Source of the DNA: Asticcacaulis solisilvae | Lineage (GTDB): Bacteria; Pseudomonadota; Alphaproteobacteria; Caulobacterales; Caulobacteraceae | Assembly: GCF_017875235.1 (NCBI RefSeq) | Contig: NZ_JAGGMI010000001.1 | Coordinates: forward strand, 310,001 to 374,000 | Reading direction: 5' to 3' | Length of the DNA stretch: 64,000 nt | In this document: positions 1-13,005 of the stretch, in pieces | Layout: each line of letters opens with the position of its first letter | Numbering within the stretch: position 1 is the stretch's first letter | Position numbers and translations under genes: made by a program | The notes under the pieces: model-generated | What the model saw: only the letters and a program-made list of their open reading frames with translations | Told to the model about the DNA's origin: nothing | The model's database searches: none

Positions 1-2423
1 AACGCCTTGGAGATATCGACCGTCTGCAGGACGTTCAGGCTGTGGCCCATGGCCATGATGACCGGCCCCTGGACCGGCGCATCTAGACGGTAGCGAATGC
101 CGACCGTCATCTTGCCCGTCGTCTGGCGCGTCAGGTTGACCGGCTCGCCGACAATGGCGGCCAGGCCTCTACCCTTGAAGACCAGCGAACGGCCGGCTTC
201 CTGCTGGTTGTTGGCATCGACAGCCGACTGCGTGACCATACCGCCGGGGCTGGAGAAGGTCGCGAGATCCCCGTCGGCCACGCCGTTCATGTCCGCCAGT
301 TGCAGCTTCCACGGCGCCTTGACGCGGCCGGCGGCAAAATAGGTATCGACATTGACCACGGCTTCGTTGCCGAGGCCCGAGTCTTCAGACAGTGGCGCGA
401 CATCGCCCTTGTCCTTATAGGTCAGGCCGTAGCCATAGGCGAACTGTGGGTCATAGCCGGGCGTGCCAACATTGAGCGGACCCTGGTTGGCCTTCTTGGG
501 CCACGAGAAGGTCAGCTTGCCCTTGAAGTCGTTGCGTGGCTGCTTGTTGGTGTCGCCGACCAGAACGTCGGCCACGCCGCCGCCTTCGGAGCCCGGCAGG
601 AATGCGGCGACAAAGGCGTCGGACGCATTGATGTAGGGGTTGGTCCACATCGGGCGGCCCGACAGGAAGACCGTCACCACCTTGATGCCCTCGGCCTTCA
701 GCTTCTTGATCATGTCAAGTTCGCTGCTGTCGCCGGTCTTGTAGCCCAGATTGGCGCGGTCGCCCTGGAATTCGGCGTAAGGGTCTTCGCCGATGACGAC
801 GATGGCCACATCCGGCTTTTCCTTGTAGACGCCGCCGACGCTCAGCGAGGCCGTGCCGCCGGCTGCCTTCACGGCATCGGCGATACCGCCATAGATCGAC
901 TGGCCGTTCGGGAAGTCGGCATTCGAATTGCCGGTGCCCTGCCAGGTGATCGTCCAGCCGCCGGACTGCTTGCCGATATTGTCGGCGCCGTCACCCGTGA
1001 CCAGAATACGGGCGTTGGCCTTCAGCGGCAGGACCCCGCCCTGGTTCTTGATCAGGACCAGCGATTCACGCACGGCCTGACGGGCCACGGCGCGGCTGTC
1101 GGCCGAACCCAGTTGGTCCCACTTGCCGGCCAGCGGACGGTCCTTCGGGGCTTCCAGCTCGAACAGCCCCCCCTTGATCTTGGCGCGCAGGATACGGCGC
1201 ACGGCGTCGTCGAGACGCGCCATCGGAATGGTGCCGTCCTTCACCTGGGCCAGGGTGTTCTTGTACAGGCCCTTCCAGCTGTCGGGCGCCATGAACATGT
1301 CGACGCCGGCATTCATGGCGATCGGGCAGCTTTCGTTGGTGCAGCCCGGCACCTGGCCCTGCGCGTTCCAGTCGGTGACGGCGAAACCGTCAAAGCCCAT
1401 GCGCTGCTTGAGGGCGCCGGTGATGATGTGCTTGGAGCCGGTCAGCTTCTGGCCGTTCCACGACGAGAAGGAGACCATGACCGACAGGGCGCCGGCCTTG
1501 ATGGCGGGCGGATAGCCGGCATTGTGGATGTTGACCAGCTCGGCTTCGCTGATGATCGCGTCGCCCTGGTCCTTGCCGTCCTTGGTGCCGCCATCGCCAA
1601 GATAGTGCTTGGCGGTCGACATGATGCGGCCCGGCTTGATGCCGTTGCGGCCGCCGTCATCGCCTTGCAGGCCCTCGACCATGCGGCCGGAATAGGCGGC
1701 GACATCGGCCGGGTTTTCGGAATAGCCTTCATAGGCGCGGCCCCAGCGCTTGTCGCGCGGCACGGCCACGGTCGGGGCGAAGGTCCAGTCGACACCGGCC
1801 AGCGACATTTCCTTGGCGGTAACTTCGCCGATCTTTTCGATCAGGTCCGGATTGTGGGCGGCGCCCAGGCCGACATTGTGCGGGAAGACGATGGCGCCGA
1901 CCATGTTGGCGTGGCCGTGGACGGCGTCGATGCCGAACAAAAGCGGAATGCGCACCTTGGTCTTGCGCGCGTCATTGGCGCGCCAGTAGTCGTCGGCCAG
2001 TTGCAGCCACTCTTCCGGGGAGGCGCGCTCGTTCTGCTTCGGCGACGAGTTGCCGCCGGCCAGGATCGAACCCAGCGGATACTCCTTCAGCTCATCCGGC
2101 TTGATGAAGTTGATGTCGGCCTGGATGGTCTGGCCGACCTTCTCTTCCAGCGTCATCTGCGCCATGATCTCGTCGATGCGCTTTTCAGTCTTGGCGTCGA
2201 CGATACCGGCATCCTCGACGGCCGGCCACGCCGGATCGACGGTGATGACCTCTTCGGCCGCGGCGGGTTTGGCCGCCGGCTTCTTGGCCTTCTTCGCTTC
2301 GGCGGCGCCGACCATGCCCAGGGCCAGGACGAGCGCAATGCCCAATCCCGACTTCAGCGTCATTTTCAGAGTGCGCGACTTGCGCATAGTGGCCGGCCCG
2401 AAGGCGTGACGTGTGAAGGACAT
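1..2423 (-). CDS. Glycoside hydrolase family 3 beta-glucosidase, secreted (3' end outside window)
   Basis: This is a secreted exo-acting beta-glucosidase-type enzyme that would release glucose from beta-glucans or cello-oligosaccharides in the envelope. The minus frame stays open from the ATG at 2423 to the window edge (807 codons). Residues about 13-45 form a basic n-region and hydrophobic signal peptide ending near GAAEA, followed by a Lys/Ala/Pro-rich linker. The GH3 barrel begins near MAQMTLEEKVGQ, with FGIDAVHGHAN and a VTDWN motif whose Asp (about residue 351) is the expected nucleophile. The start at 2423 has GGGAG five bases upstream; the in-frame ATG at 2387 has no such site. A promoter with a LacI-type operator lies at 2554-2582. 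A glucose-releasing enzyme next to an Entner-Doudoroff operon fits a shared glucose route. The exact substrate cannot be read from sequence. The long plus-strand ORF over this gene is a shadow. Confidence 0.93.
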   Translation of the reverse strand, partial: MSFTRHAFGPATMRKSRTLKMTLKSGLGIALVLALGMVGAAEAKKAKKPAAKPAAAEEVITVDPAWPAVEDAGIVDAKTEKRIDEIMAQMTLEEKVGQTIQADINFIKPDELKEYPLGSILAGGNSSPKQNERASPEEWLQLADDYWRANDARKTKVRIPLLFGIDAVHGHANMVGAIVFPHNVGLGAAHNPDLIEKIGEVTAKEMSLAGVDWTFAPTVAVPRDKRWGRAYEGYSENPADVAAYSGRMVEGLQGDDGGRNGIKPGRIMSTAKHYLGDGGTKDGKDQGDAIISEAELVNIHNAGYPPAIKAGALSVMVSFSSWNGQKLTGSKHIITGALKQRMGFDGFAVTDWNAQGQVPGCTNESCPIAMNAGVDMFMAPDSWKGLYKNTLAQVKDGTIPMARLDDAVRRILRAKIKGGLFELEAPKDRPLAGKWDQLGSADSRAVARQAVRESLVLIKNQGGVLPLKANARILVTGDGADNIGKQSGGWTITWQGTGNSNADFPNGQSIYGGIADAVKAAGGTASLSVGGVYKEKPDVAIVVIGEDPYAEFQGDRANLGYKTGDSSELDMIKKLKAEGIKVVTVFLSGRPMWTNPYINASDAFVAAFLPGSEGGGVADVLVGDTNKQPRNDFKGKLTFSWPKKANQGPLNVGTPGYDPQFAYGYGLTYKDKGDVAPLSEDSGLGNEAVVNVDTYFAAGRVKAPWKLQLADMNGVADGDLATFSSPGGMVTQSAVDANNQQEAGRSLVFKGRGLAAIVGEPVNLTRQTTGKMTVGIRYRLDAPVQGPVIMAMGHSLNVLQTVDISKA

Positions 2424-2553
2424 AGTGCTCCCGCTGTAATCCAGTGTTATTATTCAGTTTGATCGCAGCCGTCAGTCGAGGTCAACAACCTGCAACCGCG
2501 GCCACCCTGCGCCTGTTCCGGATGATTTTATAGCTCCGGTTCTTCCGCGCGGA

Positions 2554-2582
2554 TTATTGACAGCGCTATCAACCGCCGTCAA
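2554..2582 (-). promoter_or_regulatory. Promoter of the GH3 gene with LacI-type operator in the spacer
   Basis: On the minus strand TTGACG (2577-2582) and CAATAA (2554-2559) are separated by exactly 17 bases, a good sigma-70 promoter. The spacer and -10 region contain the palindrome TTGACAGCGCTATCAA (plus-strand 2557-2572) with one mismatched pair and the CG-centred form of LacI-family operators. A bound repressor would cover the -10 element. Transcription would start about 125 nt before the GH3 start codon. The regulator could be the nearby LacI protein or another family member. Confidence 0.65.
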
Positions 2583-2665
2583 GTCGATTGCTTTAACCGT
2601 TTCCTTATAAAATAAGGCATAACGCTGTTTTCCCGAAGAAAAATATTTTTGGTTTCATTATTTAT

Positions 2666-2694
2666 TTGACAGCGTTGTCAGATATCAATATATG
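2666..2694 (+). promoter_or_regulatory. Plus-strand promoter with overlapping LacI-type operator
   Basis: TTGACA (2666-2671), a 17-base spacer and TATATG (2689-2694) form a near-consensus promoter pointing rightward. The palindrome TGACAGCGTTGTCA (2667-2680) overlaps the -35 box and shares the TGACAGCG core with the operator at 2557-2572, so both divergent promoters could answer to the same repressor. The predicted start near 2700 leads into a structured, non-coding stretch ending at a terminator. Confidence 0.6.
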
Positions 2695-2699
2695 GAATC

Positions 2700-2883
2700 T
2701 ACCCTGTTTCCTCTTTGCGTCAGTTTTGACGGAACGAGGTTTCTCTTTAAAACGGCGGTGCCTGGCTCTTTCCCTTTTTCATGCCAGTCAGCGTGCGGTT
2801 TTAAAGCGCCTTCTTAAATGTGGCATTATTTGGAAGGCACTGGCCTTTAACCCCGATGAACTCCGGTTCATCGGGTTTTTTTT
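2700..2883 (+). ncRNA. Candidate sugar-regulated small RNA
   Basis: About 185 nt lie between a strong plus-strand promoter (2666-2694) and an intrinsic terminator (2852-2883), with no convincing ORF. Visible structure: CGTCA/TGACG stem at 2718-2731, and CTGGC (2762-2766) pairing with GCCAG (2783-2787) around a 16-nt pyrimidine-rich loop (TCTTTCCCTTTTTCAT). A further CU-rich stretch lies at 2706-2716. Such loops are typical of small RNAs that pair with Shine-Dalgarno sequences. The LacI-type operator at the promoter suggests induction by a sugar. I do not recognise a named RNA family. A leader or decayed gene is the alternative. Confidence 0.5.
2852..2883 (+). terminator. Strong Rho-independent terminator
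   Basis: CCCGATGAAC (2852-2861) pairs perfectly with GTTCATCGGG (2866-2875) around a four-base loop and is followed by eight T residues on the plus strand (2876-2883). There is no annotated plus-strand gene before it, so it most simply ends the candidate small RNA that starts near 2700. Confidence 0.85.
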
Positions 2884-2992
2884 ATGTTTTTTGCCGCTCA
2901 AGTGCCGCGGGGCTCGCGCAAAAGTGCGCGGGCGGTCGCCCTCGCCTCGCCTAAAAGGCTCGGAGGCTTCTGTTTATTGATAGCGGAGATGA

Positions 2993-4087
2993 CTACAACT
3001 TCCGGACGGAATCCCGTTCGATCAGCGTGAACGGCAGTTCGCGGACGATGCTGCTGAATGGCGGCGCGTCCTCGTCGGCGTTATTCCGCTCCAGCAGGAT
3101 ATCCGCTGCCGCGAAGGCCATGTCGGTTACCGGCTGACGGATCGTCGTCAGGTGCGGCCAGATCAGCTCGCAGCCAGGCGTGTCGTCGAAACCGACAATC
3201 GACAGGTCATCGGGAATGCGGATGCCGAGGCGCTGCGCCACGCTCATCATGCCGAACGCCATGTCGTCGTTCGAAGAAAAGATGGCGGTCGGCCTGGCCT
3301 GCCCATCCGCGAAGAAGGCGTTGCCGACATCGACGCCGGATTCGAAACTGAAATAACCCTGCTTGATCCATTCAGGCCTAGGTTCGACGCCCGCGTCACG
3401 CATGGCGCTCATGAACCCTTTGTAGCGCAGGTGCGTGCCGCCGTGTTCCGGGTGCCCCATGACAAAGCCGATGTCGCGATGCCCCATGTTCAGCAGATAC
3501 TGCGTCATCTCATAGGCGGCGCGCGCCTCGTCCATGCGGACCGTCGCCGTGCGGCCGGGATAAAGAAACGGAGCGATGCGGACATAGGGCACATTGGCGG
3601 CCTCGACCGTCTGCAGCACCACGGCCATGTCGCACAAGGGCGGGGTCAGAATGACGCCATCGAGGCGGATGGTAGACAGCAGGTTGGCGATCGACTTTTC
3701 GACCTCGCCGCTTGTCAGGTCCTGCGGCTCGGCCAGCAGATGGTAGTTGCTTTCCCGGCAACGCTTCACCACGCCGTGGTGCATCTGCATGATGTAGGTC
3801 GGCACGGGGTTGTGATAGAGCAGGCCCAGCAGAAAGCTGCGCGCACCGGCCAGAGACCGGGCCAGCAGGTTCGGACGATAATGCAGGACGTCGGCGGCTT
3901 GCTTGACCTTGGCGCGCGTTTCCTCGCGCACGTTCGGCTCATCATTCATGACGCGCGAAACGGTCTTGATCGATACACCGGCCAGACGCGCCACGTCATT
4001 GATGGTCGAAATGGCACCCGCAATGCCCGGAGCGGGCGCCGTGCCTTCCGGGAGAGCCTTGGTTTGATTCACTGAATGCCGTTCCAA
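2993..4087 (-). CDS. LacI/GalR-family transcriptional regulator
   Basis: DNA-binding repressor with a sugar-binding core, 364 residues. After an N-terminal extension of about 27 residues, TINDVARLAGVSIKTVSRVM is the LacI helix-turn-helix, with the hinge helix running to about residue 85. The rest is the periplasmic-binding-protein-like effector domain, including FSSNDDMAFGMM and SIVGFDDTPGCELIWP near the end, as in the GalR/SalR subgroup. It follows eda on the same strand with a 135-bp gap containing a palindrome (4150-4164) that may be its own operator. Its position after the Entner-Doudoroff genes and before the GH3 gene makes it the natural candidate to control both. The effector is not readable from the sequence. 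Confidence 0.93.
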   Translation of the reverse strand: MERHSVNQTKALPEGTAPAPGIAGAISTINDVARLAGVSIKTVSRVMNDEPNVREETRAKVKQAADVLHYRPNLLARSLAGARSFLLGLLYHNPVPTYIMQMHHGVVKRCRESNYHLLAEPQDLTSGEVEKSIANLLSTIRLDGVILTPPLCDMAVVLQTVEAANVPYVRIAPFLYPGRTATVRMDEARAAYEMTQYLLNMGHRDIGFVMGHPEHGGTHLRYKGFMSAMRDAGVEPRPEWIKQGYFSFESGVDVGNAFFADGQARPTAIFSSNDDMAFGMMSVAQRLGIRIPDDLSIVGFDDTPGCELIWPHLTTIRQPVTDMAFAAADILLERNNADEDAPPFSSIVRELPFTLIERDSVRKL

Positions 4088-4149
4088 TATCCGCCGATTA
4101 CTGGCAAAACTTTCTTCACCTGTGCAAATTTGTCAATAGCATGAGTATT

Positions 4150-4164
4150 TGGAAACGCTTTCCA
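4150..4164. promoter_or_regulatory. LacI-type operator between eda and lacI
   Basis: TGGAAACGCTTTCCA has two perfect 6-base arms around CGC and lies 63 bases upstream of the lacI start codon. It resembles LacI/CcpA-class operators and suggests autoregulation of lacI. It differs from the TGACAGCG-type sites at 2557 and 2667 and from GTTAGCGCTAAC before zwf, so more than one LacI-family protein may act here. Confidence 0.5.
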
Positions 4165-4222
4165 CCCTGCCTTGATCTTTTTTGTCGTGCAGCCGGAGAA
4201 TGCCCACGCAAGTCTTAAGGCT

Positions 4223-4852
4223 TTATTTGCCGAAGGTCGACACAGCTTCGGCCGCCAGACGGGTGATCTCGGCCCAGTTGCCCTCTTCCATCGCCTTGGC
4301 TGGGGCGACCCACGAGCCGCCGACGCACAGGACGTTCGGCAGGGCCAGGAAATCGGCCGCGTTCTTCACATCGACCCCGCCGGTCGGACAGAACTTCGCC
4401 TGCGGCAGCGGGCCGCCGATGCCCTTGAGGTAGTTGACACCGCCAGCCGGCACGGCTGGGAAGAACTTCAGGTAGGTGAAGTCCCATTCCATGGCCTGCA
4501 TGACTTCGGACGAGGTCGCTACACCCGGCAGCAAAGGCAGCGCGTCCTGATGCGCCAACGCCTTGGTCAGGCCCGGCGACACGGCGAACTGCGCGCCGGC
4601 CTTGGCGGCCTTTTCGGCGTCCTTGGGCGTCAGCACGGTGCCGGCGCCGACGACGGCTTCCGGGCATTCCTCGCTGATCAGCTTGATGGCGTCGAGCGCG
4701 CAGTCGGTGCGCAGCGTGATTTCCAGCACCTTGATGCCGCCATTGATCAGCGACTGGGCCAGCGGCACGGCGTGTTCGATTTTCGAGATGACCATGACCG
4801 GCAGCACAGGGCCCATGGTCATATATTTCTGGACTTTGTTGTTCTGGGACAT
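4223..4852 (-). CDS. eda: 2-dehydro-3-deoxy-6-phosphogluconate (KDPG) aldolase
   Basis: Splits KDPG into pyruvate and glyceraldehyde-3-phosphate, the last Entner-Doudoroff step, in the cytoplasm. 209 residues, normal for the family. Class I aldolase features are visible: LEITLRTDCALDAI (Glu of the active site), VVGAGTVLTPKDAEKAAKAG, FAVSPGLTKAL, LKFFPAVPAGG (Schiff-base Lys in the KFFPA motif) and FCPTGGVDVKNAADFLALPN. It follows glk with a 176-bp gap filled by a palindromic repeat (4885-5020), so it may be read through from the zwf operon or partly uncoupled by the repeat. lacI follows on the same strand. Confidence 0.97.
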   Translation of the reverse strand: MSQNNKVQKYMTMGPVLPVMVISKIEHAVPLAQSLINGGIKVLEITLRTDCALDAIKLISEECPEAVVGAGTVLTPKDAEKAAKAGAQFAVSPGLTKALAHQDALPLLPGVATSSEVMQAMEWDFTYLKFFPAVPAGGVNYLKGIGGPLPQAKFCPTGGVDVKNAADFLALPNVLCVGGSWVAPAKAMEEGNWAEITRLAAEAVSTFGK

Positions 4853-4884
4853 GGTCGTTTCCTTAGCCTGATCGGGTCAATTTA

Positions 4885-5020
4885 TTCCCTCCCCGTTTAC
4901 GGGGAGGGGGGACCACGAAGTGGTGGGAGGGGGATTATCCGCTCCCGATTTGTTTCTATGGCCTTCCCCCTTCCGTCATCGCCTCCGGCGATGCCACCTT
5001 CCCCGTAAACGGGGAAGGAA
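4885..5020. repeat. Paired inverted palindromic repeat between glk and eda
   Basis: The left copy has a CCCCGTTTACGGGG stem, then a GACCACgaaGTGGT stem and a G-rich tail. The right copy is its inverse and ends in TTCCCCGTAAACGGGGAA. A core of about 40 bases separates them. It has the same two-stem architecture as the repeats at 28461, 31758, 33960, 39273 and 50230 but a different first-stem sequence. It lies inside the presumed zwf-pgl-edd-glk-eda transcript. Confidence 0.8.
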
Positions 5021-5028
5021 GGAATGGT

Positions 5029-6027
5029 TCAGCCCGTTATCTCGTTGTCAGTAAGCGCATTTGCCGAGCCCAGCAAGGCCGCATACGGATGGATGATGAT
5101 GCGCGACGGAATGGCCGACACCAGATGCACCATCGGCTGCTTGGCCTCCATGCGGGCGCGGAAGCGCAGTTCGTCGATATGCTTGATCAGGCGCGGTGCG
5201 ATACCACCGGCCATGAACATGCCGGACGTCGCGCCGTGCGCCAGGGCAAGGTCGCCGCAGACGCTGGCCATGATGTCGAGGAACGCCTCAACCGTATAGC
5301 GGCTACCGGTCGCGTCCTCGCCTTCCAGATGGGTGATCTGCGCGGGCGTCAACGGCTCGCAGCCCTCGCCGCGGATCGAGCAGATGGCCTGGTAGAGGTT
5401 GACCAGGCCCGGGCCCGACAGCAGCATCTCGACCGTGACGCGACCGTACTTCTTGCGCAGGAAGCGCTGGATCTCGGCTTCGTAGTCGTTGACGGGGGCC
5501 CAGCTGATATGACCGCTTTCGGTCGACAGGCAGTACGGGCCATATGCGCCGCCGACCAGCACCGAAGCGCCGAAGCCCGTCCCTGCCCCCATGACGGCGT
5601 GGACATTGCCGAAGCCTTGCGTCACCGGCCCGATCGTCTTGACGTCCTGATCCGACAGGTGCGGCAAGGCAAAGGCCAGGCCGGCATAGTCGTTGATCAG
5701 GCGTGCCTTGGGGGCGCCGACGGATTCGGCCAGCAGCCGCTCCTCGATGATCCAGCTGAGATTGGTGAACTTGATCCGGCCATCCTTGACCGGACCGGCA
5801 ACCGCCACGCAGGCATAGTCGAGCGCCGGACGGCCGCCGATCATGCCGAAATAGGCCTTGAGCGCCTCATAGACGTCCGGATAGTCGCCGCATTCCAGCG
5901 ACTTGAAACTGGACAAAGTCGTCTTGCCGTCCGTCCGTTCGGCCACGGCGAAACGCGCATTGGTGCCGCCGATGTCACCGACCAGACCGCGCAGCGTGCG
6001 GCCAGAAATTCCTGATTGAGCTGTCAT
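5029..6027 (-). CDS. glk: Glucokinase
   Basis: Phosphorylates glucose with ATP to glucose-6-phosphate, feeding zwf. It belongs to the bacterial Glk family rather than the ROK family: GDIGGTNARFAVAE is the phosphate-binding loop near residue 15, followed by LSWIIEERLL, LINDYAGLAFALP (catalytic Asp in the NDYAG segment), GAGTGFGASVLV and TESGHISWAP. The start at 6027 (MTAQSGISG) gives 332 residues, normal for the family, and lies four bases after the edd stop. The longer frame to 6162 would overlap edd by 130 bases and adds unconserved residues. It is coupled to edd in the zwf-pgl-edd-glk operon. Confidence 0.95.
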   Translation of the reverse strand: MTAQSGISGRTLRGLVGDIGGTNARFAVAERTDGKTTLSSFKSLECGDYPDVYEALKAYFGMIGGRPALDYACVAVAGPVKDGRIKFTNLSWIIEERLLAESVGAPKARLINDYAGLAFALPHLSDQDVKTIGPVTQGFGNVHAVMGAGTGFGASVLVGGAYGPYCLSTESGHISWAPVNDYEAEIQRFLRKKYGRVTVEMLLSGPGLVNLYQAICSIRGEGCEPLTPAQITHLEGEDATGSRYTVEAFLDIMASVCGDLALAHGATSGMFMAGGIAPRLIKHIDELRFRARMEAKQPMVHLVSAIPSRIIIHPYAALLGSANALTDNEITG

Positions 6028-6031
6028 TACC

Positions 6032-7846
6032 TTACCAAAAGACGGCACCGCCCGCGTCGGCTGGCCCCACGACGCGGCGCATATGCGCAAAAAGTTCCCG
6101 ACCCACACCATCAGCCTCTCTGGGCCGTTCAGCGTTTTGTCTTTGAGCAAACTCGGCGGCATCTCCGAGGTAATCTACTGTTCCGGCGACGCAATCGACC
6201 CGGATCAGGTCGCCGGTCTTGAGCTTCGCGATCGGCCCGCCATCCACCGCTTCGGGTGTCAGGTGGATCGCCGCGGTCACCTTGCCTGACGCGCCCGACA
6301 TGCGGCCGTCCGAGACCAGCGCGACCTTGCGGCCCTGATCGAGGATCGACGACAAGGACGGCGTCAGCGAATGCAGTTCCGGCATCCCGTTGGCTTTTGG
6401 GCCTTGGAAACGGACCACGCAAACGAAATCGCCTTCCGGCAGTTGTTTGGCCTTGAAGGCCGCCAGGAAATCGTCCTGGTCGTCGAATACCACACAGGGG
6501 CCTTCGACGATCTGATGCTCCGGCTTGACGGCCGACGTCTTGGTGACCGAGCGGCCGAGATTGCCCTTCAGTTCGCGCAAGCCCCCTTCGGGCTGGAACG
6601 GATTAGACAGCGGACGCACCACGGCCTCGTCGAGGCTGTGTTCCGGCACCGGGCGCCAGGTCAGCACGCCCTCATCGAGGAAGGGTTCTGTGGCGTATTG
6701 GCTCAAGCCGTGGCCCCAGATGGTATCGACGTCTTCGTGCAGCAGGCCGCCCGACAGCAGCTCACGGATGACGAAGCCGACACCGCCGGCGGCGTGGAAG
6801 TGGTTCACATCGGCCGAACCGTTCGGATAGACACGCGCCAGCAGCGGCACAACGCGCGACAGTTGGTCCATGTCTTCCCAGGTCAGGATGACGCCGGCAG
6901 CGCGCGCCATGGCCGGCAGGTGCAGGGTGTGGTTGGTCGATCCACCGGTGGCCAGCAGGCCGACCGCCGCATTGATAAAGGCCTTTTCCGACAGGACGTC
7001 GGCCAGGCGCTTCGGGTCCTTGCCGTTTTCGGCCGTCTTTGCCGCGCGCTCGGTGGCGGCGGCCGTCAGGGCCTCGCGCAGCGGCGTGTTCGGATGGACA
7101 AATGCCGCGCCCGGCACATGCAGGCCCATCATCTCCATCATCATCTGGTTGGAGTTGGCCGTGCCATAGAAGGTGCAGGTGCCGGCGGCGTGATAGGAGG
7201 CCATTTCGGCCGCCAGCAGCGCGTCGCGGCCGACTTCGCCGAGGGCATACAGCGTGCGGATCTTGGCCTTTTCCGGATTGGGAAGCCCGGAAGACATCGG
7301 ACCGCCCGGCACGAAGATGACCGGAAGGTGGGCAAACGACAGGGCGCCGATGACCAGGCCAGGCACGATCTTGTCGCAGATCCCCAGCATCAACGCAGCG
7401 TCAAACGCGTCGTGGCTAAGCGAAATTGCGGTCGCCATGGCGATGACGTCGCGCGAAAACAGCGACAGCTCCATGCCCGGACGGCCTTGCGTGACGCCGT
7501 CGCACATGGCTGGCACGCCACCGGCGACCTGGACCGTGGCGCCGACTTTACGGGCAGCGACGCGGATCTTGTCCGGGTAGTCGTGATAGGGTTGGTGCGC
7601 CGACAGCATATCGTTGTACGAGGTGACAACGCCGATATTCGGCACGGCATCCAGCGCCTGTTGCAGCTTGTCGGTATCCGAGGACGCGGCCACAACGTGG
7701 GCATAGTTGGCGCAGCTGAGCTTCTTGCGGCGCGGCTCGTCCGACTTATAACGGTCGGCGCGGCTCATGAAATCGGCGCGCAGGTCTTTCGAACGTTCGA
7801 TGACGCGCTGGGTGACTTCGGCGAGGACAGGGTGCAGTTCAGCCAT
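6032..7846 (-). CDS. edd: 6-phosphogluconate dehydratase
   Basis: Dehydrates 6-phosphogluconate to KDPG, the committed Entner-Doudoroff step. 604 residues, full length for the IlvD/Edd family. Iron-sulfur cluster Cys motifs are in place: [22 protein letters not shown] and [21 protein letters not shown]. The C-terminal domain has [15 protein letters not shown], typical of the family. Ten bases separate its start from the pgl stop, and its stop abuts glk. Organisms of this order generally lack phosphofructokinase and depend on this route (family knowledge). Confidence 0.97.
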
Positions 7847-7855
7847 ATGACTACC

Positions 7856-8599
7856 TCAGGGTGCCCAGACGAATTCGACGGCAACTCTGGCCTGGGCCAG
7901 GAAGGCGCCGATGGGCGAAGTATAGGGATCGGTCGACTGGGCGGCGGTCTTCAGCACGTCCAGCTTGGTCTGACCGGTGATATAGAACAGAATGCGGCGC
8001 GATTCGTTGATCGCCGGCACCGTCAGCGTAATGCGCGGCAGCTTGGGCTCCAGCTCGGTCGTCGAGGCCGAGACCGGCAGGACCAGGGCATCCGTATTGT
8101 AGACGACGCCGTTGATGGCGTGGCCTGGGAAGATCGACGCATAGTGGGCGTCCGGCCCCATGCCCATCAGGGCGAAGTCGAACACCGGCGGCTCACCACC
8201 ACCCAGCTCACGCAGCTTTGCTTCGGCCTTGGCAGCGCAGGCGTACTGGTCGTCGATGTCCTGGATCAGCGAGATCAGCTCCATGGCGCCCTGGCCGAGG
8301 ACGCTGCTGAGCGCTTCACGCATCATGCGCGTATTGGAGGCGGCGTCATCGGTCGGCACGAAGCGTTCGTCGACCTGGAACAGCTTGACCTTGTCCCAGT
8401 CGATGTCTTCGGTGACCAGCTGCTCATAGATCGGCTTCGGCGTATTGCCGCCGCAGCCGAGCCAGATGGCCTTGCCGCGCTGGGCGATGGCGTCCTTCAG
8501 AGACTTGGCGATGTTTGGCGCGATCCACGCCCCGGCTTCCGCCGCGCTGTCAAAGCAACGCACCGCGACGGGCCCCTTGGCGCCGTCGAAGGTGATCAT
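7856..8599 (-). CDS. pgl: 6-phosphogluconolactonase
   Basis: Hydrolyses 6-phosphogluconolactone to 6-phosphogluconate, between Zwf and Edd. It is a member of the NagB/devB-type isomerase-lactonase fold: IWLGCGGNTPKPIYEQL near the N-terminus, KLFQVDERFVPTDDAASNTRMM and FDFALMGMGPDAHYASIFPG are diagnostic. The ATG at 8599 has GGGCAGGG just upstream. A GTG at 8617, three bases after the zwf stop, would add six residues and is the other possible start. Length is 247 residues. It is tightly packed between zwf and edd in one operon. Confidence 0.94.
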   Translation of the reverse strand: MITFDGAKGPVAVRCFDSAAEAGAWIAPNIAKSLKDAIAQRGKAIWLGCGGNTPKPIYEQLVTEDIDWDKVKLFQVDERFVPTDDAASNTRMMREALSSVLGQGAMELISLIQDIDDQYACAAKAEAKLRELGGGEPPVFDFALMGMGPDAHYASIFPGHAINGVVYNTDALVLPVSASTTELEPKLPRITLTVPAINESRRILFYITGQTKLDVLKTAAQSTDPYTSPIGAFLAQARVAVEFVWAP

Positions 8600-8620
8600 G
8601 TGGCCCTGCCCGTCCACCTT

Positions 8621-10096
8621 TCAATCGTTCCAGGTGCGGCCGTCACGGTCCAGCAGCGTATAGGCGCTGACCGGGCCGTAGGTGCCGGCGGGATAGGTTT
8701 GAGGTTTGGGATAGGCCTGTTTCCAGGCCTCGGAAATGCCGTCGACCCAGGCCCAGGCGGCCTCGACCTCGTCGCGGCGGACGAACTGGGCGTTGTTGCC
8801 ATTCAGGGCATCGAGGATCAGGCGCTCATAGGCGATGCGGCGGCGCGATGGTTTGTTGCCGTTGCCATCAAACGCATTGATCAGCGACAGGCTGAGGTCG
8901 AGCGACTGCAGGTGCATCCCCTCGGCGGTCAGACCCGGCGACTTGTTCATGATGCTGAGCTTGATGTCTTCATCGGGCTGCAGGCGGATGATCAGGCGGT
9001 TGGCACGATCTTCACCGCCAAAGATCGAGTGCGGCAATGCCTTGAACTGGATGACGATTTCGGTGGCGCGCGATGGCAGGCACTTGCCGGTCCGCAGATA
9101 GAAGGGCGTCCCCGCCCAGCGCCAGTTCTGGATTTCGGCCTTGACGGCCACATAGGTTTCTGTGCCCGACGGTGAACCCTTTTCGGCTTCGTAGCCGCGG
9201 ATGGCGCCGCCATCGGCAAAGCCCGGACCATACTGGCCGCGCGCCGTCACCTGGGTGACGTTCGAGGCGTCGATGGGCTTAAGCGATCTCAGCACCTTGA
9301 CCTTTTCGTCGCGCAGGGCGTCAGATGACAGGCCGGCCGGCGGCTCCATGGCGGTCAGGCACAGCAGCTGCAGCAGATGGTTCTGCAGCATGTCGCGGAT
9401 GGCGCCGTATTCGTCGTAATAGCCGAGACGCTCACCCGTGCCGACGGTTTCGGCGATGGTGATCTGGACGTGGTCGATCGACTGGGCGTTCCACAGCGGC
9501 TCGAACACCGTATTGCCGAAGCGCAGCGCGATCAGGTTCTGGACGGTTTCCTTGCCCAGATAGTGGTCGATGCGGAAGGTGCGATCTTCGGAGAAGGCGT
9601 GGGCGACCGAGTCGTTGATGATCTTCGACGTCGCCAGGTCGCGGCCGATCGGCTTTTCAATGACGACGCGGTTCGGCGCCTTGTTGAGGCCCGCGCGCTC
9701 GATATGCTCGCAGATCGGCTTGAACAGGGTCGGCGACACAGAGAGGAAGTAGACGATGTCGAGCGCGTCGACATTGCCAAGCTCGGCCTTGAGCTTTGGC
9801 CCCCAGTCGTCATTGGCGGCGTCGAGCGCGACGTGGACGATGCGCTTGCGGAAGCGCGGCAGGGTCGACGGCTCCAGATCGGTGCCGATCCGCTTTTGCA
9901 CCGCATTGCCGATGCGATCGACGCACACCTCGGTACCACAGTCCTCGCGCGCCACAGAGATAATGCGGAGGTCATCCGGCAGATAACCGTCCTGGTCGAG
10001 CATGGCCAGGGACGGCCACAGCATCCGCATGGCCAGGTCGCCGGTGCCGCCGACAAGGACAAAGACCTGCTGCCGCGCGCTGGAAGATATCGCCAT
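8621..10096 (-). CDS. zwf: Glucose-6-phosphate 1-dehydrogenase
   Basis: Oxidises glucose-6-phosphate with NAD(P)+ to 6-phosphogluconolactone; first gene of the operon. 491 residues, full length. The N-terminal nucleotide fold has FVLVGGTGDLAMRMLWPSL; the conserved VVIEKPIGRDLATS and FRIDHYLGKETVQNLIALRF carry the substrate-binding and catalytic residues (RIDHYLGKE signature). The start ATG has AGGGA eight bases upstream. About 80 bases upstream of the start lies a perfect LacI-type palindrome (10175-10186), so the whole operon is likely repressed until sugar is present. Confidence 0.97.
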   Translation of the reverse strand: MAISSSARQQVFVLVGGTGDLAMRMLWPSLAMLDQDGYLPDDLRIISVAREDCGTEVCVDRIGNAVQKRIGTDLEPSTLPRFRKRIVHVALDAANDDWGPKLKAELGNVDALDIVYFLSVSPTLFKPICEHIERAGLNKAPNRVVIEKPIGRDLATSKIINDSVAHAFSEDRTFRIDHYLGKETVQNLIALRFGNTVFEPLWNAQSIDHVQITIAETVGTGERLGYYDEYGAIRDMLQNHLLQLLCLTAMEPPAGLSSDALRDEKVKVLRSLKPIDASNVTQVTARGQYGPGFADGGAIRGYEAEKGSPSGTETYVAVKAEIQNWRWAGTPFYLRTGKCLPSRATEIVIQFKALPHSIFGGEDRANRLIIRLQPDEDIKLSIMNKSPGLTAEGMHLQSLDLSLSLINAFDGNGNKPSRRRIAYERLILDALNGNNAQFVRRDEVEAAWAWVDGISEAWKQAYPKPQTYPAGTYGPVSAYTLLDRDGRTWND

Positions 10097-10174
10097 CTAA
10101 CCGTTCCCTGACTGACTGTAATTTCGTCCCATATAGAGGAACTTGCCCTTGCGAAACAAGGCCATTACACAATT

Positions 10175-10186
10175 GTTAGCGCTAAC
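10175..10186. promoter_or_regulatory. LacI-type operator upstream of zwf
   Basis: GTTAGCGCTAAC is a perfect 12-base palindrome with the CG-type centre of LacI/GntR-family sites, about 80 bases before zwf. Sites of the TGTTAGCGCTAACA form are known for LacI-family sugar-acid regulators in proteobacteria. A possible -10 (TATATG on the minus strand, near 10131) lies closer to the gene. Confidence 0.65.
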
Positions 10187-10204
10187 GGAAGAAATGAGTT
10201 TCAC

Positions 10205-10243
10205 GCGCTCTTCCCGCTCGCGGGGAGAGCGCTGGGGTGAGGG
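10205..10243. repeat. GC-rich palindromic repeat (second family)
   Basis: CGCTCTTCCC..GGGGAGAGCG stem followed by GGGTGAGGGG. The repeat at 46045-46112 has the same arrangement (CTCTCCCC..GGGGAGAG, then GGGTGAGGGG at its end). It lies between ppc and zwf, near the zwf operator. Confidence 0.55.
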
Positions 10244-10335
10244 GCAAATCAACCTTGACCACAGGCATCGCAACCGCCGCCAAGGCTTATGTCACCTCAG
10301 TTTACCTGTCAGCTCCGAAGGCGCCGCCGGCAAAA

Positions 10336-13005
10336 TCAGCCCGTATTCCTGAGCGCCGCCGAGATGCCATTGACCGTCAATTGCGCGGCCAACTGCACCA
10401 GTTTGTGATCGTTACCACGGCGCAGACGGCCGATCAGATGCACCTGAAGACGGTTAAGCGCATCGAGCACCGGCTTCGACCGTTCGATCTGGCCGCGCAG
10501 GCGCTCATGCGTCGACAGAAGCGTCGAGGCGCCGCGAATGCGCAGGATCAGCGCCACGGTGTCGTCGAACTCGCTTCGGATCTGGGCGAAGATGCGTTTG
10601 GCTTCCTCGGGCTCGGTCGCAAGCGCCACGTAGGACTCGGCCACGCCCATGTCGGCCTTGGCCATGCCCATTTCCATATTGGCCAGGAAGACGTCGAAGA
10701 AGTCCCACTTGACCATCTCCTGCAGCTCGGCGTCGGTAACACCGGCCTCGCGCACGCCGGCGGCAAAGCCGTACCACCCCGGCAGCATGAGACGCGACTG
10801 CGACCACGAAAACACCCACGGAATGGCGCGCAAGTCCTCGATCTTGCCGGAAGCCGTACGCGATGCCGGGCGCGAACCGATCTTGAGGCCCGAGATTTCC
10901 GAGATCGGCGTCACCGAACGGAAAAACGCGAGAAAATGCGGATCGTCATAGACCAGACCACGATAGGCCTTGAACGAGGCTTCGCAGATTCGATCCATGA
11001 CCGGCGTGAAGCGCGCCTCCAATTCGCTGTCGCCGGCCGGACGCATGGTGTGGCCATTGGGCTTGGATGCCAGGAAGGTCGCGGCGGCAAAGGCGTCGAG
11101 CGTCTTTTGCGCCACCTGCGGATTGCCGAACTTGCGCGCGATCATCTCGCCCTGTTCGGTGACGCGGATCTGTCCGCCGACGGTACCTTCCGGCTGGGCC
11201 AGGATGGCTTCGAAGGCCGGACCGCCGCCGCGCCCGACGCTGCCGCCGCGGCCATGGAACAGGCGCAACTGCACCTTGCTCTCGTCGCAGACGGCCTTGA
11301 CGGCCTTCGAGCCCTTGTGCAGCGACCAGCGCGACGCCGTATAGCCGCCATCCTTATTGGAATCCGAATAACCGAGCATGACCTCCTGGATCAGCGGCCG
11401 GCCCATCAACGAGCGGACGGCGTAGTTGCCGAGCCACTTCTTCATGATGTCGGGCGCGGCTTCCAGGTCGCCGATGGTCTCGAACAGCGGCGAAATCTTG
11501 ATCATGGTATGCGGCTGGGGTCCGCCGCGCACCAGGCCGGCCTGCTTGAGCAGGACCAGCGGTTCGAGGATGTCGGAGACCGACGCCGCCTTGGAGATGA
11601 TATAGGCGCCGAAGGCTTCCGGGCCGAAGGTCTTGATCAGTGCGGCGGCCGCATCGACGATCTTCAGCTCGCGGCGCGTCTCGTCGGAATAACGCGCATA
11701 GGGCCAGCGTAAGATGCGGTCATTGGTCAGTTCCGCCAGCAGCAGCGAGCAGCGCTCGCTTTCCGACATGCCGAGATAGTCGATGAGCTCCGACGACTGG
11801 GTGAACAGCTCGGCGATCACGCGCTCATGGACGTCCGAGTTCTGGCGAAGGTCGATGGCCAGCAGGTGGAAGCCGCACGAGCGCGCAATGCGGATCAGGC
11901 TCTTCAGCGTCTTGCCGACCATGCGCTTGCCGCCATGTTCGGCAATCGAGTCGCACAGGACCTTGAGGTCCTTGATGAAGGCGTCGCAGGTCTCATAGGG
12001 CGGGGCCGCGACATTGCCGCGGCGGTCGTCCTCGTCGAGGATCAGGCTGCGCGTCCGCGCCAGCCGGTCCTTGATCCAGGCGATGGCGCGGCGATAGGGC
12101 TCGTCGACACGATGGATATTGCCGTCCATCGACTTGCGCGACATTTCGAGCAACGATTCCGATACCTTGGTGAGTTCGTCCGACAGGGTCAGTTCGGTGT
12201 CGAGCTGTTCAAGCTGCGTGAAATAGAAGCGGAAGGCCAGCCGCGCCTGCGTCTTGATGGCGTAGTTGAGCGTCACCTCGTCGACGTGCGGGTGGCCGTC
12301 GCGGTCGCCGCCGATCCAGGTGCCGAGCTTCAGCACACTCGGCAGGGCGCGCTCGATGTCGAGGTTACGCCCCCACTCGTTATACAGCGACACCAGCGCC
12401 GGCAGGATCGAGCGTTCGACGTGCCCCAGAAGATTGTTGATCTCGTCCTTGACCGTGATCCGCTCGGGCCGGTTCAGGCGCGTGTTCCACAGAAGCGCGA
12501 TCGCGCGATAAAGCTCGTCCTCGATCGTCTTCTTGTCGCTGCCGGACTTCTCATAGGCCTGCAGCAGTTGCGTAATCTCGGTCTCGCGCATGGTGACACT
12601 GGCGCGGCGCATCTCGGTCGGATGGGCAGTGAAGACCGGCGAGGCCAGGATATCAGCCAGCAGCGTCTCGACCTCTCCTTGAGTCATGCCCTCGCCCTTT
12701 GCCGAGGCCACGGCATTGGTCAGGGTCGTCGCCTGACGCGAACCATCCGAGGCGGTGAACTTGTCGACCATTTTCAGCTGATCGACGTCCTCGGAGATCA
12801 CCTGCAGCGTCGACAGGCAGGTCATGATGCGCGCGGCGTGGGCAGCTTCGGACTCGCTCAAGGCCGCCAGATCGCACTTGCCGGCGATCAGTCCATCGAT
12901 CAGGTCGAGGATATGGTCGCGACCGAAATCGCGCACCGCCTCATGCAACAGGCCGTCCAAAAGCGCGATATGATGCCTTACGGGATCGAGAGAAGTGTCA
13001 TCCAT
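10336..13005 (-). CDS. ppc: Phosphoenolpyruvate carboxylase
   Basis: Carboxylates PEP to oxaloacetate with bicarbonate, refilling the TCA cycle; this matters in cells whose sugar carbon reaches pyruvate through the Entner-Doudoroff route. 889 residues from the ATG at 13005, which has GGAGG eight bases upstream; the longer frame to 13035 lacks a site. Catalytic motifs are intact: FTAHPTEMRR (His about 128), VMLGYSDSNKDGGYTASRW, LRLFHGRGGSVGRGGGPA, and the C-terminal ALRNTG that closes the active site. It stands alone on the minus strand, divergent from the hypothetical gene at 13281. Confidence 0.97.
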   Translation of the reverse strand: MDDTSLDPVRHHIALLDGLLHEAVRDFGRDHILDLIDGLIAGKCDLAALSESEAAHAARIMTCLSTLQVISEDVDQLKMVDKFTASDGSRQATTLTNAVASAKGEGMTQGEVETLLADILASPVFTAHPTEMRRASVTMRETEITQLLQAYEKSGSDKKTIEDELYRAIALLWNTRLNRPERITVKDEINNLLGHVERSILPALVSLYNEWGRNLDIERALPSVLKLGTWIGGDRDGHPHVDEVTLNYAIKTQARLAFRFYFTQLEQLDTELTLSDELTKVSESLLEMSRKSMDGNIHRVDEPYRRAIAWIKDRLARTRSLILDEDDRRGNVAAPPYETCDAFIKDLKVLCDSIAEHGGKRMVGKTLKSLIRIARSCGFHLLAIDLRQNSDVHERVIAELFTQSSELIDYLGMSESERCSLLLAELTNDRILRWPYARYSDETRRELKIVDAAAALIKTFGPEAFGAYIISKAASVSDILEPLVLLKQAGLVRGGPQPHTMIKISPLFETIGDLEAAPDIMKKWLGNYAVRSLMGRPLIQEVMLGYSDSNKDGGYTASRWSLHKGSKAVKAVCDESKVQLRLFHGRGGSVGRGGGPAFEAILAQPEGTVGGQIRVTEQGEMIARKFGNPQVAQKTLDAFAAATFLASKPNGHTMRPAGDSELEARFTPVMDRICEASFKAYRGLVYDDPHFLAFFRSVTPISEISGLKIGSRPASRTASGKIEDLRAIPWVFSWSQSRLMLPGWYGFAAGVREAGVTDAELQEMVKWDFFDVFLANMEMGMAKADMGVAESYVALATEPEEAKRIFAQIRSEFDDTVALILRIRGASTLLSTHERLRGQIERSKPVLDALNRLQVHLIGRLRRGNDHKLVQLAAQLTVNGISAALRNTG

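Follow-up and report, generated by a model that had tools for sequence, protein, structure and literature searches.

A predicted LacI-controlled small RNA next to the Entner-Doudoroff genes of Asticcacaulis, with pyruvate phosphate dikinase as a candidate target

Control of sugar metabolism by small RNAs is well described in enterobacteria, where Spot 42 and SgrS are sugar-responsive RNAs that redirect carbon metabolism, in many cases by masking ribosome-binding sites. In alphaproteobacteria, the description of such control is only beginning. A related transcriptional system is known from Caulobacter, in which the predicted LacI-family regulator GluR (CC2053) is encoded directly downstream of zwf-pgl-edd-glk (PMC4052901). 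In the sections of that study devoted to this regulon, GluR sites are predicted for zwf-pgl-edd-glk, pykA, gnl-gfo, ppdK, sucABCD and the regulator's own gene, the latter being preceded by a site in all three Caulobacter genomes, and GluR is proposed to leave the DNA in response to glucose (PMC4052901).

We analyzed a 64,000-nucleotide stretch of the Asticcacaulis solisilvae genome (the window), in which a first-pass annotation had proposed a small RNA divergent from a GH3 beta-glucosidase gene and close to the Entner-Doudoroff operon. This arrangement is borne out by gene calls and domain assignments, with GH3 and eda-glk-edd-pgl-zwf all encoded on the minus strand:

3-2423, minus strand: GH3 glycosidase gene (PF00933, PF01915), divergent from the RNA, its 3' part extending beyond the window edge.
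2993-4087, minus strand: LacI-family regulator gene, GluR-like (PF00356, PF13377), convergent with the RNA and facing its terminator.
4223-10096, minus strand: zwf-pgl-edd-glk-eda cluster (Entner-Doudoroff pathway), from gene calls and domains.

The regulator gene thus lies downstream of zwf-pgl-edd-glk, separated from glk in the window by eda alone. The predicted RNA occupies the intergenic region between the GH3 and regulator genes and possesses its own promoter, the -10 box of which is variable, as well as an intrinsic terminator. Its elements are as follows:

2699-2883, plus strand: predicted small RNA of ~185 nt, the 5' end being placed at about 2699-2702 by inference.
2710-2739, plus strand: hairpin 1, which differs in sequence between species.
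2745-2806, plus strand: hairpin 2, a long stem (UUUAAAAC...GGUUUUAAA) that presents the loop, from the fold and from covarying helices 1 and 2.
2767-2782, plus strand: 16-nt loop of hairpin 2, UCUUUCCCUUUUUCAU, predicted to pair with the ribosome-binding site of ppdK.
2768-2780, plus strand: loop core CUUUCCCUUUUUC, formed by near-invariant alignment columns.
2808-2838, plus strand: hairpin 3 (helix 3), the loop of which contains UGGCAU (2821-2826).
2852-2883, plus strand: intrinsic terminator, a 10-pair stem (2852-2875) followed by eight T, from the terminator scan and covarying helix 4.

The RNA strand folds at -66.2 kcal/mol, compared with -46.4 +/- 3.6 kcal/mol in 200 shuffles (z -5.6). 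Two hairpins had originally been proposed, whereas three precede the terminator; the 16-nt loop noted at that time is present in the second of them, the stem of which closes with UUUAAAAC and GUUUUAAA. The strong terminator with eight T expected ~185 nt downstream of the promoter was also recovered. Since the scan detects two terminator-like sites versus a mean of 2.0 in shuffles, it is the length and conservation of the terminator that make it convincing and not the scan count.

A DNA search identified the RNA in 18 of the 24 other Asticcacaulis genomes and in none of 36 genomes from other genera. When 18 copies were used to build a covariance model, the RNA was found in 23 of 25 Asticcacaulis genomes. 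The suggested covariance search in relatives was therefore productive within Asticcacaulis, but not in other genera including Caulobacter, as none of the 365 genomes of other genera in the family matched under filters that may lose weak matches. In a 398-genome sample of the order, searched with similarly strict filters, all five matches belong to Asticcacaulis. Model scores are 92.9-162.5 bits for the 23 copies, 18 of which had been used in building it, and at best 24.6 bits for non-Asticcacaulis DNA among 90 stretches, the majority of which had been chosen in advance for the loop.

The alignment fitted to the model (23 copies, 22 of them distinct) has two-sided changes in 21 of 35 helix pairs, a level reached by none of 500 shuffles, and 98.6% of its cells pair, compared with 53-54% when the partner is slid by one column. 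An unfitted alignment of 19 copies shows two-sided changes in 17 of 34 pairs. For helix 3, such changes affect seven of the ten pairs, with 100% of cells paired. In hairpin 2, the 13 loop letters CUUUCCCUUUYUC hardly vary between copies and are predicted to be unpaired (0.99-1.0) in all of them. The UGGCAU loop of hairpin 3 likewise occurs in 23/23 copies, and UGGCC precedes the terminator in 21, differing in L058 and L059. As a separate observation, the complement of the UGGCAU loop, AUGCCA, could include start codons. On this comparative evidence the RNA is almost certainly real, and it constitutes a new family within an established type of RNA.

The upstream region contains a promoter and two palindromes:

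2666-2671 and 2689-2694, plus strand: promoter of the small RNA, -35 TTGACA and -10 TATATG with a 17-nt spacer, read from the letters.
2667-2680, plus strand: LacI-type operator TGACAGCGTTGTCA, a palindrome overlapping the -35 box.
2558-2571, plus strand: second LacI-type operator TGACAGCGCTATCA, a palindrome upstream of the GH3 gene, on the GH3 side.

The initial description of this promoter as near-consensus holds for the -35 box, which is identical in all 23 RNA copies, but not for the -10 box, which differs among relatives. The promoter is absent from the automatic promoter scan of the window, because the scan rule demands a final T in the -10 box. The LacI-type palindrome over the -35 box proved to be a constant feature of the family: the operator letters TGACAGCG[C/T]TGTCA are kept in 23/23 copies. 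Written as TTGACAGCG[C/T]TGTCA, this conserved string implies that the -35 box and the operator form one element. Fusion of an operator to the -35 box is the usual place for repression. In each of the 23 copies TTGACAGCGYTGTCA is kept together with a divergent GH3 gene, and a second palindrome is also found upstream. We conclude that a LacI-type repressor very probably controls the RNA. The sequence of the GH3-side site, TGACAGCGCTATCA, occurs in addition ~70 nt before a gene for a TonB-dependent receptor (TIGR01782; L458) elsewhere in the same genome (contig C11, 1731-1744), and this common site suggests that the receptor gene is co-regulated with the GH3 gene.

The identity of the repressor was approached through the genomic context and the distribution of sites. 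The LacI-family gene is located within 3 kb of the RNA in 22 of 23 carriers and 10 kb away in the remaining one (G004). G023, the sole genome without a close ortholog of this regulator (best identity 41%), also lacks the RNA; G017 has the regulator (64%) and lacks the RNA as well as an adjacent GH3 gene (16 kb examined). The operator precedes zwf in six of the seven Asticcacaulis genomes in which that region is covered, the exception being the window, where no such operator was found before zwf. At nine outgroup loci with an ortholog of the LacI gene, zwf was found in four, each time with an exact TGACAGCGCTGTCA in front, and at one further outgroup locus the site lies before a GH3 gene. Upstream of the regulator gene itself, 12 of 23 carriers have a site with 1-2 mismatches and the other 11, the window included, have no such operator; a one-mismatch site is located ~300 nt before sucC in the window's genome. 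The zwf, sucC and own-gene sites match members of the GluR regulon as listed in its published reconstruction (PMC4052901). The likeness to CC2053 is judged from genomic place and these sites, and it is in this sense that the LacI gene at 2993-4087 is called GluR-like.

Two other palindromes of LacI type were noticed in the window. The first, TGTTAGCGCTAACG at 10174-10187, lies before zwf, a position taken in six relatives by TGACAGCGCTGTCA or a similar sequence, and the zwf operon may have changed its regulator in this genome. The second, TGGAAACGCTTTCCA at 4150-4164 between eda and the LacI gene, perhaps controls the regulator gene.

The adjacent GluR-like protein is the probable regulator of the RNA. 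The operator could instead serve another LacI-family protein, such as a repressor of BglR type for beta-glucosides, in which case the RNA would answer cellobiose or beta-glucosides. This assignment is favored by the GH3 neighbor present in all 23 carriers, by the copy of TGACAGCGCTATCA ~70 nt before the TonB-dependent receptor gene and by the lack of such a site before the LacI gene in the window; moreover, the account of GluR names three BglR paralogs close to it (PMC4052901). However, the outgroup loci L063, L065 and L070 combine the LacI ortholog with zwf and the same operator and have no GH3 neighbor, and the joint absence of the LacI regulator and the RNA from G023 also counts against a BglR-type protein, which we regard as an unlikely partner of the operator.

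Retaining the GluR-like protein as the predicted regulator, we turn to the target of the RNA. The pyrimidine-rich loop had been considered fit to pair with ribosome-binding sites, and target prediction against it had been recommended. The loop indeed combines near-invariance with predicted single-strandedness in 23/23 copies, and its best match among 1470 frames in G020 (1.6 of 3.3 Mb, or about half of the genome, scanned) is the ribosome-binding site of the pyruvate phosphate dikinase gene, ppdK. G020 was picked for this ranking because of its perfect ppdK match, a 13-nt complement of the loop at the ribosome-binding site, and under a different start choice 64 of 1466 G020 frames reach -12 kcal/mol. 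Two other high-ranking frames of this genome were read as KduD and PntB. The ppdK candidate arose post hoc, from a search of these same genomes for the complement of the loop in which ten matches were examined. Among the matches listed, at least five are perfect 13-mer complements outside the RNA genes; of the three perfect ones examined (L208, L211 and L212), only L212, corresponding to ppdK, precedes a start codon, and the other listed ones lie in G005 and G001. A further match, L220 (G006:C2:993200-993212), complements the loop at 12 of 13 positions just before the start codon of a secreted-looking protein, perhaps an esterase as judged by eye.

In all 25 Asticcacaulis genomes the ppdK site was read and pairs with the loop at -10.8 to -19.4 kcal/mol, with a mean of -14.7. 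Energies of -12 kcal/mol or lower are reached in 24 of 25 Asticcacaulis genomes versus 2 of 45 outgroup genomes, the outgroup means being -7.8 (27 genomes) and -6.6 kcal/mol (18 genomes). The ppdK sites of the window's genome and of the ten whose RNA is closest to it, a group defined by DNA search scores, are all at -15.6 kcal/mol or lower. As a control, 8 of 128 start regions from eight neighboring gene families reach -12 kcal/mol, a set from which matches without a usable start were dropped and in which G004 is counted twice for some genes. None of 300 shuffled loops pairs as well on average with the 25 ppdK sites, which are related by descent. Within individual genomes the arrangement of the loop letters matters less: of 1000 shuffles, the number that pair as well is 20 for the window's genome, 116 for G001, 82 for G004, 18 for G012, 11 for G011, 4 for G018 and 0 for G020 (7 of 25 genomes covered). 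Complementary ppdK sites are also kept in the RNA-less genomes G017 (-15.3 kcal/mol) and G023 (-14.8 kcal/mol); recent loss of the RNA could explain this complementarity, which gives no support to the ppdK assignment. Weighing these data, we consider the chance that ppdK is a true target to be slightly better than even.

The RNA might mainly target outer-membrane TonB-dependent receptors in response to sugar, with ppdK as an incidental match. The sequence AAGGGAAAG precedes the start codon in several receptor-like genes (L371, L374, L379, L380 and L384), and the Caulobacter small RNAs SisA and RusT are described as acting on such receptors in the relevant parts of two reports (PMC12559287, PMC11005374). 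On the other side, four receptors in the scanned half of G020, recognized by a crude rule, pair no better than other genes. In one receptor family, all 22 copies read have a comparable site, those of the RNA-less G017 and G023 included; another family is found in 13 of 25 genomes and has AAGGGAAAG in 5 of these 13, among them the RNA-less G023. Energies for the rest of this second family depend on start codons assigned automatically, at least two of which (L388 and L390) were misplaced. With no enrichment in half of G020 and two families without a clear link to the RNA across the genus, the receptors were rejected as a target class, and we see them as an improbable main target. Irrespective of the RNA, one family of TonB-dependent receptors (L399-L420) keeps the unusual ribosome-binding site CCTAAGGGAAA, or one near it, in 22/22 copies, RNA-less genomes included.

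We regard it as distinctly unlikely, more so than the receptor and BglR-type alternatives, that the RNA titrates another RNA or a protein, in the manner of a sponge or decoy, and pairs with no mRNA. CrfA of Caulobacter is reported to be such a sponge in carbon starvation (PMC12559287), and hairpin 3 likewise presents an invariant loop, UGGCAU; against this, the conserved loop of hairpin 2 is pyrimidine-rich, which would be the polarity of an mRNA-binding seed.

The coding potential of the region was assessed in the predicted transcripts of all 23 copies. In 16 of them no ATG frame of at least 12 codons closes inside, and the other seven contain ATG frames of 13-27 codons that differ from each other, with no single frame conserved. 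In agreement with the original statement that the region has no convincing ORF, no reading frame is common to the 23 copies. Nor is conservation limited to a coding frame, as would be seen for a gene encoding a small protein; the helices covary and no frame is shared, and for these reasons the element is interpreted as a structured non-coding RNA. Hence it is very improbable that the locus encodes a small protein or serves a gene further downstream as its leader or attenuator: although a 104-codon TTG frame crosses the region and seven transcripts have an ATG frame of at least 12 codons closing inside, 16 have none, the seven share no conserved frame, the conserved helices contain one- and two-base gaps, the next gene in the window is convergent with the RNA and the terminator is kept.

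Comparison with Rfam revealed no family at its gathering score, the best match being 16.5 bits versus a cut-off of 49.5. The claim that no RNA had been described at this locus is consistent with this result, and a literature search of titles and abstract openings, with most subscription journals outside its reach, found no description of the RNA. The small-protein, leader and known-Rfam interpretations were rejected on the basis of these observations.

We somewhat favor a model in which the locus encodes a trans-acting small RNA of ~185 nt that is repressed by the GluR-like protein, released by sugar and blocks ppdK. In this model, the neighboring GluR-like LacI-family protein, the presumed binder, would occupy TGACAGCGYTGTCA over the -35 box and repress the RNA promoter. 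Glucose or a glucose-derived compound, the presumed signal, would take the repressor off the DNA, and the Entner-Doudoroff genes and the RNA would then be made together. The exposed pyrimidine loop of hairpin 2 would cover the ribosome-binding site of the ppdK mRNA, the predicted target, and presumably repress it. Conversion of pyruvate to PEP by this enzyme would thus be curbed while sugar yields pyruvate.

The distribution of operators suggests how such a relay could have arisen. A GluR-like site before ppdK, defined as a match with at most two mismatches within 350 bases, is present in none of 25 Asticcacaulis genomes and in 9 of 45 outgroup genomes, the latter counted without sorting by presence of the regulator; shuffles give 0.2-0.4%. 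Some other Caulobacterales accordingly have a GluR-like site at ppdK itself; in one outgroup genus (g29), three of five genomes have it. Together with the loop complementarity at ppdK and the published link between GluR and ppdK, this distribution suggests that in Asticcacaulis the RNA may have taken the place of the direct site. We tentatively propose, at somewhat less than even odds, that an ancestor of Asticcacaulis lost the direct ppdK operator and replaced it by the RNA, so that the repressor would now activate ppdK through an RNA that inverts the sign of its action. Through this RNA relay, a repressor could also exert the positive control required for a gluconeogenic gene.

The present analysis yields a genus-wide RNA for which the likely regulator, signal and first target can all be named from sequence. 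If true, the switch of ppdK from a DNA site to an RNA would represent a natural experiment on the replacement of an operator by a small RNA. It would also make the rewiring of a transcription-factor link into a small-RNA link traceable inside a single genus.

Among known systems, the GluR regulon of Caulobacter resembles the Asticcacaulis locus in having a LacI-family gene beside zwf-pgl-edd-glk, the presence of ppdK in the network and the proposed glucose signal (PMC4052901); similar sites stand upstream of zwf in six of seven genomes, of sucC in the window's genome and of the regulator gene in 12 of 23 carriers. In contrast, ppdK is under a direct site in Caulobacter, while in Asticcacaulis this site is found in 0/25 genomes and the RNA matches the gene instead; the regulon as described in the sections on GluR includes no mention of a small RNA (PMC4052901). 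SisA-D (alphaR8) and CrfA of Caulobacter crescentus, as presented in the portions of their description relevant here, are likewise alphaproteobacterial small RNAs tied to carbon supply, and SisA-D also bind mRNAs through an exposed pyrimidine stretch; their UUUCCUCCCU, however, is single-stranded below a weak hairpin, whereas CUUUCCCUUUYUC forms the loop of a long hairpin (PMC12559287). The alphaR8 core UUUCCUCCCU is absent from positions 1-11000 of the window, the nearest string in the RNA being UUUCCUCUUU at 2707, which has two differences and is not kept in relatives. Identity with alphaR8 was rejected, since its defining core is absent.

The likeness to Spot 42 and SgrS was initially suggested to be one of role and not of sequence, and so it appears, with a gluconeogenic enzyme leading as the predicted target and no match to Rfam; in contrast to the new RNA, Spot 42 and SgrS have CRP and SgrR as regulators and other targets. 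The proposed sign inversion has its counterpart in the Fur-RyhB pair, where repression of an inhibitory RNA allows a repressor to act positively as well. The two RNAs are unrelated, and the parallel would lie in the logic of the circuit, which responds to iron in that case and would respond to sugar in Asticcacaulis.
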